Shown here piece after piece: positions 6,266 to 8,151 of a stretch of 28,907 nt of DNA. How positions within the stretch are numbered: the first letter of the stretch is position 1; each line of letters begins with the position of its first letter. The position numbers were made by a program, and so were the translations under genes. This DNA is from a virus. The DNA is taken from the IMG/VR virus record IMGVR_UViG_3300030109_000414, positions 1 to 28,907 of that record; one strand, 5' to 3'. The notes beneath the pieces were generated by a model. That model did not search any database. It saw only the letters and a program-made list of their open reading frames with translations, and was not told where the DNA came from.

Positions 6266-7018
6266 ATGGCAAAAACATTCTATTATGATTCAGGTGATTT
6301 ATTAAATGCAACTCTAAATGATGGAACTTTTAGTGGCTCTAGCTTTAGTGATTCAGATAGCACAACAAATGAAGAGAGGTTAAATGACCAATCAATAGCA
6401 ACTTCTATATCAGATTATGGTAGTGGTGATGCTGTTAAAATAACTTTTTCAGGAGTTACAGCACTTGATTTTGTAGCTGTTTATTTTACATCTAGTGAAT
6501 CTGACAATCTCTCATTATATAGAGAGGCAAGTGCAAATAGTTATTCATCTATAAAAGATATGACTGCTACATTTAGTGCTGGGTGGACTGTTGGAGAGTT
6601 TGGTTCAGCATCAGCAACAAATTGGCATCTAGCATCTACATCTGGAAATGTAGCAAACCTAACTGAAGTGATTGTTGGTAGTAAGTTAGAATTTGAAATA
6701 AATCCAGATATCGGTATTTCAGAACAAGAAAATTATGGAGTTGATATTCAAACATCTTTAGGCGGTGTTGAATATGCCACTAAACTGCATAATCCTAAAT
6801 CAACTATATCAATGTCATTTTCAAACATATCAGAAACATTTAAAGACAATCTCCAATCATTTGAGGCACAAGTTACAAACTTTAAAAAATTCATCTATTC
6901 GGAGGATGGTACTACTGGACCATTTCATTATGTGCGATTGGACTCACCCATTCAATTTGCAGAAGTGGCATTTCAGAGATATTCAGCATCCTTCACTCTG
7001 CGAGAACAACTCTCGTAA
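6266..7018 (+). CDS. distal tail (Dit-like) or minor tail protein
   Basis: 250 aa starting one base after the hub stop (TAA then ATG), with GAGGG upstream. The N-terminal half (residues about 50-150) has a discoidin-like pattern, from VKITFSGVTALDFVAVYFTS to NVANLTEVIVGSKLEF, found in carbohydrate-contacting tail modules. The C-terminal half, with FKKFIYSEDGTTGPFHYVRL and ending FQRYSASFTLREQLS, looks like a tail ring domain. Last gene of the tail operon: a clear terminator follows 12 bp after its stop. Order hub then Dit-like differs from the usual Dit-then-hub, so the role could also be a receptor-binding minor tail protein. Confidence 0.5.
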   Translation: MAKTFYYDSGDLLNATLNDGTFSGSSFSDSDSTTNEERLNDQSIATSISDYGSGDAVKITFSGVTALDFVAVYFTSSESDNLSLYREASANSYSSIKDMTATFSAGWTVGEFGSASATNWHLASTSGNVANLTEVIVGSKLEFEINPDIGISEQENYGVDIQTSLGGVEYATKLHNPKSTISMSFSNISETFKDNLQSFEAQVTNFKKFIYSEDGTTGPFHYVRLDSPIQFAEVAFQRYSASFTLREQLS

Positions 7019-7030
7019 TTCCTGTCTATG

Positions 7031-7059
7031 AAAGGCGATTGAAATATATCGCCTTTTTT
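7031..7059 (+). terminator. rho-independent terminator of the tail operon
   Basis: A perfect 9-bp stem AAAGGCGAT (7031-7039) with ATCGCCTTT (7048-7056), loop TGAAATAT, followed by more T to 7059. It lies 12 bp after the stop of the last tail gene and directly upstream of the next promoter, so it separates late tail transcription from the early operon. Confidence 0.88.
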
Positions 7060-7061
7060 AC

Positions 7062-7090
7062 TTGCAACTGATTAAGTAAATGATTATAAT
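7062..7090 (+). promoter_or_regulatory. sigma70-type promoter of the early operon
   Basis: -35 TTGCAA (7062-7067; 4 of 6 consensus) and -10 TATAAT (7085-7090; 6 of 6) separated by exactly 17 bp. The predicted start is near G7097, the first base of the leader's 5' helix strand. It begins just after the terminator at 7031-7059. This is the best promoter I can see in the window. Confidence 0.82.
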
Positions 7091-7096
7091 TGCAAT

Positions 7097-7211
7097 GATG
7101 AGACAATTAAATAACATACATTTTGATACAAAAGAGGGAGCATCAGGCTGTCTAGCCGAAATTGTCTCATCCCAATTCGCTCCCTCTGTATCACAAAAGG
7201 ATGAGAATCAA
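7097..7211 (+). promoter_or_regulatory. structured 5' leader RNA with interleaved helices and possible RBS switch
   Basis: Between the predicted transcription start and the likely ATG at 7212. Helix A: GATGAGACAATT (7097-7108) with AATTGTCTCATC (7160-7171), 12 perfect pairs. Helix B: TGATACA plus GAGGGAGC (7124-7130, 7134-7141) with GCTCCCTC plus TGTATCA (7179-7193), 15 pairs with a 3-nt AAA bulge. A small hairpin GGCT/AGCC lies at 7146-7157. The order A, B, A', B' is a pseudoknot. CTCATCC (7166-7172) in strand A' is also complementary to GGATGAG (7199-7205), which overlaps the Shine-Dalgarno of the 7212 gene. Thus A-A' pairing would expose the RBS and A'-RBS pairing would hide it. No U tract follows, so control would be at translation. 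Not matched to any known riboswitch class by eye. Confidence 0.7.
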
Positions 7212-7595
7212 ATGAATTACAAACAAGCAAAAAAAGAAGGTAAAAGAGTAGATTATGTATTTGAATTTGCTAAAACTGATAAGGGCATGACTGCTAAAGA
7301 TACTGCATTATTTCATTTATGTAATCCAAATGGTAATTATACATTATGTAAGGAATGGGGAAGTGAGGCTTATGATAAAGGATATTTTATACATGGAATA
7401 ATTGCTGGAAGTTGGCATCGTGACCAGTTAAATAAATTATCAGAAATGAAAAAACCAAGATGGTGGAATGTAAGGTATCATGTTAATACCTTATATGAGG
7501 ATGCTGTAGAATGGGCAGAGAAGGTAAAAGATGTTGAAAATAGAACTGATGAAGAAAAAGAATATGTTGAAAACTTTTTAAAAGGAGGTAAGTAA
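7212..7595 (+). CDS. hypothetical protein, first gene of the early operon
   Basis: 127 aa from ATG 7212, chosen over an in-frame ATG at 7080 because 7080 lies upstream of the predicted transcription start, the intervening bases form RNA helices, and AAAAGGATGAG (7195-7205) gives a good RBS for 7212. The protein is mixed charge: MNYKQAKKEGKRVDYVFEFA at the start, a Trp-rich middle (KEWGSEAYDKGYFIHG; KPRWWNVRYH) and an acidic helix before GGK at the end. I do not recognise the family. Being the gene directly under the structured leader, its product or its dose is what that leader would control. Confidence 0.72.
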   Translation: MNYKQAKKEGKRVDYVFEFAKTDKGMTAKDTALFHLCNPNGNYTLCKEWGSEAYDKGYFIHGIIAGSWHRDQLNKLSEMKKPRWWNVRYHVNTLYEDAVEWAEKVKDVENRTDEEKEYVENFLKGGK

Positions 7596-7798
7596 TGACT
7601 AAAGAACAAAGAGATTTACTTATTGAACTTGTAAGGGTAGAAAGAAGAAGGCTTAATAATGCTAAAAGATTGACCTTTGTTTCTTATCATGAAAATGATG
7701 AATTGAACAAAGAAATAAAATTATGCAATGAAACTTATGATTTTTTGCTTGAGAGCCACATTGCTTATGTTGAACTTGTGAATGAAGGAGGTAAGTAA
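7595..7798 (+). CDS. small hypothetical helical protein
   Basis: 67 aa, starting in a TAATG overlap with the previous stop; RBS GGAGG lies inside the last codons of the upstream gene. The sequence is highly charged and probably all helix (EQRDLLIELVRVERRRLNNA, later LNKEIKLCNETYDFLLE). The last codons again encode GGK with the same GGAGGTAAGTAATG junction to the next gene. Function unknown; position suggests an early host-interaction or regulatory protein. Confidence 0.68.
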   Translation: MTKEQRDLLIELVRVERRRLNNAKRLTFVSYHENDELNKEIKLCNETYDFLLESHIAYVELVNEGGK

Positions 7799-8151
7799 TG
7801 GATAAAAGAAGAGCATATGAATGGAGCATATTATACTATTATGAAGGATATGATGATGCAGACCCAATCTTTGAAGAAAGTTTGGGAATGTTATTGGGGG
7901 GAGACTTTAATCATCCATTTTTAAAAGAAAAAAAGTTTACTAATGTCAATTTAGGTAATGAAAATGGAAAAGAGTTGTTTGGCGATTTAGAAATAAAGTT
8001 ATGGAGATGGGATTCAGGTTTAGGCGAGTGGGATAATGATTACTCTCACATAGAAGATAATTCAGGAAAAATATTACTTTCTAACAATAATGCTTGGAAA
8101 GTTCCAAAAAAGTATCAACAAGAACTAAATAAGTTTTTACAAGGAGAGTAA
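7798..8151 (+). CDS. hypothetical acidic protein
   Basis: 117 aa starting in a TAATG overlap with a strong GGAGG site. Aromatic and acidic, with YEWSILYYYEGYDDADPIFE near the start and EIKLWRWDSGLGEWDNDYSH in the middle. No membrane segment, Cys cluster or recognisable motif. It sits in the run of small early genes. The following gene begins 4 bases downstream using the RBS GGAGAG in this gene's last codons. Confidence 0.65.
   Translation: MDKRRAYEWSILYYYEGYDDADPIFEESLGMLLGGDFNHPFLKEKKFTNVNLGNENGKELFGDLEIKLWRWDSGLGEWDNDYSHIEDNSGKILLSNNNAWKVPKKYQQELNKFLQGE

Follow-up and report, generated by a model that had tools for sequence, protein, structure and literature searches.

A conserved pseudoknot-capable leader RNA of uncultured phages whose 5' end and ribosome binding site appear to compete for one strand

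Several described RNAs come close to the leader discussed here. In the c4 system, a phage stem-loop precedes a phage operon and its loops are complementary to sequences near the ribosome binding site of the first gene. On the plasmid ColIb-P9, a leader reading frame is combined with a pseudoknot at the ribosome binding site; the pseudoknot activates repZ, and an antisense RNA competes. This repY/repZ pseudoknot of an IncI-alpha plasmid is cited as a molecular switch for translation in PMC10724649, and the c4 antisense RNA of phages P1 and P7 (RF01695) is among the RNAs listed in PMC2864571. In phage lambda, the early cIII mRNA can fold in two mutually exclusive ways, one with an open and one with a closed ribosome binding site (PMC4166951). 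The metA leader of Sinorhizobium, which belongs to the SAM-II class, sequesters the Shine-Dalgarno sequence and contains two in-frame AUGs (PMC9373788). Finally, E. coli mRNAs that have both a 5'-terminal AUG and a Shine-Dalgarno start can use both (PMC4965119).

The leader analysed here precedes the early operon in the window, that is, the whole 28,907-nt stretch of the IMG/VR record IMGVR_UViG_3300030109_000414. It comprises a strand A at the predicted mRNA 5' end, a stem B/B' whose loop contains a strand A', and R, which repeats the A motif at the ribosome binding site; A' is complementary to both A and R. As in lambda cIII, exclusive conformations of a phage early mRNA meet at the ribosome binding site. 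The cIII switch is not known to involve competition with the 5'-terminal start codon of the mRNA, a pseudoknot with an A'-displaying stem or a leader frame. Compared with repY/repZ, the A'/R pseudoknot would here cover the Shine-Dalgarno sequence rather than activate, and the leader frame starts at the predicted mRNA 5' end and is in frame with the gene. The SAM-II leader of metA has a conserved ligand-binding core for which no match was found here, and in our case the two starts bracket the element. The likeness to the E. coli messages lies in one mRNA being usable both leaderless and leadered, whereas the abstract of PMC4965119 reports no structure that makes the two starts exclusive.

All three pairings are present in the window. 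Helix A/A' is paired at 12 of 12 positions (GATGAGACAATT, 7097-7108, with AATTGTCTCATC, 7160-7171). Stem B consists of six and nine pairs around an AAA bulge (TGATAC, 7124-7129, and AGAGGGAGC, 7133-7141, against GCTCCCTCTGTATCA, 7179-7193), and A' pairs with the ribosome binding site over eight positions (TCTCATCC, 7165-7172, with GGATGAGA, 7199-7206). An earlier note on this DNA had described these pairings: both helices were found again exactly where it had placed them (7097-7108/7160-7171 and 7124-7141/7179-7193), and the pairing of A' with the Shine-Dalgarno region proved one pair longer than it had given. Among 20,000 dinucleotide shuffles of the leader, 28 had a helix of at least 9 bp at the 5' end and 345 had some 9-bp inverted repeat, and the 12-bp A/A' pair had zero recurrences in shuffles of the window. 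A chance origin is thus already unlikely on single-sequence evidence. What settles the pairings as real is comparison, as 20 further leaders contain the same three, spelled in other letters. When six leaders are folded without pseudoknots, stem B forms, its loop holds A', and A and R lie outside. Within this loop lies an inner hairpin (Table 1) whose stem letters change in the relatives (to GCCC/GGGC in L014; to GAGC/GCTC and AGGC/GCCT in class 2). No further copies of the leader were found within the window.

Table 1. Features of the leader and its surroundings in the window
Feature	Position	Strand	Basis
Rho-independent terminator-like hairpin closing the tail operon	7031..7059 (7031-7039/7048-7056, then T-run)	+	9-nt perfect inverted repeat
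Promoter TTGCAA-17-TATAAT, 6 nt before the first base of A	7062..7090	+	10/12 consensus score
A, first 12 nt of the predicted mRNA, pairs with A'	7097..7108	+	pairing and comparison
AUG1 at +2 (G-AUG), predicted leaderless start of the leader frame	7098..7100	+	AUG in 21/21 leaders
Leader open frame, 38 codons, in frame with the first gene	7098..7211	+	stop-free in 21/21
L1, A/U-rich linker from A to B	7109..7123	+	A/U-rich in every class
B, 5' strand (AAA bulge 7130-7132)	7124..7141	+	pairing and comparison
Inner hairpin GGCT-GTCT-AGCC in the loop of stem B	7146..7157	+	changed letters in relatives
A', complementary to both A and the copy R at the ribosome binding site	7160..7172	+	pairing and comparison
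B', 3' strand of stem B	7179..7193	+	pairing and comparison
R, second A-motif copy (GGATGAGA) over the Shine-Dalgarno sequence AAGGA (7197-7201)	7199..7206	+	pairing and comparison
First early gene P0001, 127 aa, start AUG2 at 7212, no family found	7212..7595	+	aligned homologue starts

Relatives were fetched with the tail protein encoded directly upstream (6266-7018), and their tail/early-operon junctions were compared. The architecture, here called the cis type, occurs in 21 leaders, namely the window and 20 loci (L014-L017; L024-L027; L071, L085, L088; L078, L084, L090; L081, L083, L086, L092, L240; L254); 19 of them are distinct, in about seven sequence classes. Certain classes have just the GATGA core of A in common, yet the three-part pairing is present in each, and R is found in all 21. 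A strict search for the three-part layout in 4.47 Mb (both strands of all loci) returned the known leaders and a handful of chance hits. A short-pattern scan yielded mostly unrelated GC-rich contigs. In a collection of cultured phages, neither the leader region nor four of the leader classes had a match, nor did the tail protein or the 446-aa protein encoded after the terminase; terminase and exonuclease matches were distant and uninformative. Since a bacterial genome collection contained no relatives of the tail protein, no host is assigned.

Across the 21 leaders, A-A' spans 9-12 bp, the ungapped core of B-B' 8-14 bp and A'-R 8-12 bp. The strands fit their own class: duplex energies of cognate and class-swapped strands are -13.0 versus -6.1 kcal/mol for A-A', -16.4 versus -6.7 kcal/mol for B-B' and -12.5 versus -5.7 kcal/mol for A'-R. 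In A-A', each of positions 6-10 has changed on both strands, 97.5% of cells are paired and the covariation score is 0.579 against 0.149 in shuffles (0/500), and in A'-R two-sided changes occur at three positions, with 98.2% paired and a score of 0.372 against 0.120 (0/500 shuffles); the pair counts come from an alignment built element by element and hence fitted to the structure, and slid and shuffled controls lie far lower. L090 illustrates the pattern, its A' (CTCGTG) and R (GCGAGAC) having one change per side with pairing preserved. Loss of the pairings without compensation, which the earlier note held would count against it, was looked for among the homologues; they keep the pairings with compensatory changes. 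These changes strongly support its picture of a pseudoknot-capable leader, evidently conserved, in which the 5' end of the mRNA and the ribosome binding site would compete for one strand. A-A' and A'-R are two conserved helices that share a strand, one of them over the ribosome binding site, as would be expected of an exclusive translation switch of the lambda cIII kind.

The same changes bear on the idea that the repeats act as DNA, as operator or recombination sites, instead of as RNA. The element is indeed flanked by a single word in direct and inverted orientation, but from class to class the letters of all three strands change together, the element keeps a fixed position relative to +1 and the start codon, and G-U pairs are present (L078, L090 and B of class 2), which leaves this idea a negligible probability.

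How the two competing helices are balanced differs between classes. Except in class 1 and L078, A-A' and A'-R differ by at most about 1.6 kcal/mol. In the window, which belongs to class 1, the energies are -15.1 (A-A') and -11.2 kcal/mol (A'-R), and since A-A' is clearly the stronger, the two helices do not make an obvious bistable pair in this leader.

The promoter seen by the earlier note was recovered and scores 10/12, predicting a start at G7097; by chance, 2.2 promoter-like sites are expected in the promoter-bearing stretch. A promoter-like pair lies 5-7 nt before A in all 21 leaders (exactly 6 nt in 17), and the predicted +1 is the first base of A, within one nucleotide, in every one. 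In nearly all leaders this predicted +1 is the G preceding an AUG, which would put a start codon within about a nucleotide of the mRNA 5' end, as in leaderless messages. The terminator-like hairpin upstream of the promoter is absent from the output of a consensus terminator scan.

From this AUG a reading frame crosses the leader with no stop in any of the 21 cases, while the other frames contain 2-6 stops each where counted; for seven representatives the probability of such a stop-free frame in shuffles is 8.5e-8. At 17 loci the frame runs into the first gene in phase, and in the four loci of class 2 it stops on the gene's start codon (TAATG). The distances from AUG1 to AUG2 (114, 111, 108, 105 and 102 nt) remain multiples of three despite indels. 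In L090, the AUG is lost in R and retained in A at the cost of a wobble pair, a retention that favours AUG1 as a start codon. The leader is therefore not plainly non-coding, as it appears to hold an open frame from a 5'-terminal AUG, a feature absent from the earlier note. An AUG at +2 instead of +1 can weaken leaderless initiation. The encoded peptide is weakly conserved (pooled pN/pS 0.64, from pairs that are not independent), so the frame may serve the passage of ribosomes and not a product. Its conserved residues sit in the helices, and it is thus the frame and the RNA, rather than the product, that appear constrained. If translated, such a frame across the alternative helices would bring the leader near the leader-peptide control (translational attenuation) of ermC and repY.

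These features also speak to a plain timer of ribosome-binding-site occlusion in which AUG1 has no function. In such a timer, A/A' would protect the mRNA while the ribosome binding site is open, until 5' trimming or slow refolding frees A' to close it; the frame would be incidental or would keep passing ribosomes in frame. We regard this as unlikely. It would agree with A beginning at the predicted +1 in all 21 leaders, with an A'/R helix nearly isoenergetic with A/A' in most classes and with the poorly conserved peptide, but it sits badly with the stop-free frame, with lengths that change in threes, with the class 2 stop at TAATG and with the AUG that L090 kept in A and lost in R.

The features established by comparison, namely the three pairings, their covariation, the A copy at the ribosome binding site, the placement of the promoter, the open frame and the independence from the downstream gene discussed below, can be arranged into a mechanism; that the leader controls translation, and in which direction, we infer. 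Judged from these features, the leader is very likely a genuine translation switch that seems not to have been described, and we favour, as its probable form, a cis-acting pseudoknot switch with two translation starts that exclude each other. Its message would begin at G7097 as 5'-G-AUG, and the B/B' hairpin would present A' in its loop. With A' paired to A, AUG1 would be buried and the 5' end sealed, the Shine-Dalgarno sequence of the first gene would be free, and translation would start at AUG2. With A' paired to R, AUG2 would be hidden and AUG1 exposed; a ribosome starting there would translate the whole leader and then continue into the gene in frame or, in class 2, stop on its start codon. 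As A/A' would form first during transcription, before R exists, the default is presumably an open gene with a sealed 5' end and A'/R the off or low state, with both starts being used. Together with B/B', A'/R would give a classical H-type pseudoknot and A/A' an interleaved alternative that shares stem B. Candidate triggers are ribosome occupancy of the 5' AUG, processing of the 5' end, temperature, or an RNA or protein partner. Since the product of the first gene could arise from both states, the regulatory gain is not explained by a two-start switch.

About 17 different small first genes, nearly all without a family, stand behind the 21 leaders, and this variety makes the element a module of the tail/early junction and not of one gene. 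Other phages carry homologues of P0001 whose start codons align with its ATG and which follow ordinary leaders of unrelated sequence. The leader as part of P0001's own conservation was considered and ruled out, given these homologues and the occurrence of the same leader before unrelated genes. In L024, L026 and L084, the same first gene (MIHTIISLS...) is found behind two unrelated leader classes, which points to an exchange of leaders and genes.

The mutually unrelated downstream genes also argue against a metabolite riboswitch or an RNA thermometer, which we consider very improbable. A pseudoknotted leader over the ribosome binding site does recall SAM-II, and thermometers need no conserved letters, but besides the A/U-richness of L1 there are no conserved unpaired nucleotides across classes, and the invariant letters belong mostly to the A/A'/R motif. 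Moreover, none of the 4227 Rfam families (SAM-II, Downstream-peptide and C4 antisense RNA included) matched at or above its gathering threshold in the window or in 16 relatives, eight of the cis type and eight of the upstream type introduced below; the best sub-threshold matches to the window element are far below gathering. A metabolite riboswitch is made unlikely by loops that vary freely between classes. The earlier note's reading as an RNA switch is partly supported, by the conserved competing pairings, while a metabolite as its ligand, one of the options it had left, is disfavoured by the lack of a conserved unpaired core. Hammerhead, HDV-like and other ribozymes were rejected as well, the letters not fitting their cores and Rfam giving no match.

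At the same junction, 16 other relatives without the leader element (L018, L019, L022, L023, L028, L029, L033-L037, L039, L043, L075, L080, L091) have a strong stem-loop after the tail gene and ahead of the early promoter. Two sites of the early mRNA find their complement in its loop, in antiparallel order: the 5' end ((A/G)TGAATA and variants) and the Shine-Dalgarno sequence. Tested against shuffles for collinear perfect complementarity, 13 of the 16 loci stand out at 5%, and L028, L036 and L075 do not; the energies from RNAduplex do not discriminate the cognate targets of these stem-loops, only collinear perfect complementarity does. In design the stem-loops are close to c4, including the two-site complementarity, and they look like c4-like antisense RNAs or silencers of read-through transcripts. 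They differ from c4 in that the tested loci have no Rfam match, and the cis type adds the 5'-terminal decoy strand A and the leader frame. On the tree of the tail protein, the cis and upstream designs were swapped at least four times on well-supported branches. Their shared complementarity indicates that in each design the mRNA 5' end and the ribosome binding site face an antisense strand; the cis type can cover just one of these sites at once, and the upstream type would cover both.

Could the A' stem-loop, then, act mainly between molecules, repressing other copies of the mRNA as c4 does, with A as a restraining decoy? The relatives that carry an upstream antisense stem-loop against the same two sites instead, and the repeated swaps, would be in line with this. 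In the cis type, however, A, A' and R lie in one molecule and thus at high effective concentration, and neither a processing site nor a separate terminator was found, which makes such action between molecules quite improbable. Returning to the exclusive switch in cis, a wider formulation is possible, and we offer it tentatively: one loop-held antisense strand would choose between a leaderless and a Shine-Dalgarno start of an exchangeable first gene, so that the protein would exist in two forms or ribosomes would be recruited in two ways, and would be evolutionarily interchangeable with an upstream stem-loop that covers both sites.

A limited search of the open-access literature found related principles and not this design. 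The principle of exclusive helices is known; what appears to be new is that a leaderless and a Shine-Dalgarno start are pitted against each other through a loop-displayed strand, and that this arrangement interchanges with an upstream stem-loop. The leader would add to phage biology a conserved RNA family, absent from Rfam, whose members have diverged or unrelated sequences in uncultured phages. By joining leaderless and Shine-Dalgarno initiation in one exclusive structure, it would give a natural and testable system for how phages choose between them, and owing to its independence from the gene it could be transferred onto reporters. The swap between antisense within the message and upstream of it would be an uncommon instance in which related genomes have found two solutions to one control problem at the same place.

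Some further observations concern the junction and its genes. Six relatives (L031, L032, L090, L094, L251 and L261) have differing sequence downstream of the tail gene, and in L031 and L090 the junction resembles, by eye, a reverse-strand integrase gene; this integrase-like sequence suggests that the tail/early junction is an exchange site. Among the upstream-type loci, early mRNAs seemingly begin with GTG or ATG in L018, L019, L028, L029, L075, L080 and others, and 10 of the 16 have a short 5' frame that is in phase with the gene or ends at its start codon. Downstream of its tail gene, L021 has two successive hairpins. The next mRNA begins with TATGGAAACAACAAC, to which GTTGTTGTTATCCATA in the second hairpin is nearly complementary. 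Lastly, most first early genes end in ...GGK-stop (at 7590-7598 and 7795-7800 in the window, and in the first genes of the relatives), an ending by which their last codons (AAAGGAGGTAAGTAATG) form the Shine-Dalgarno sequence of the next gene.
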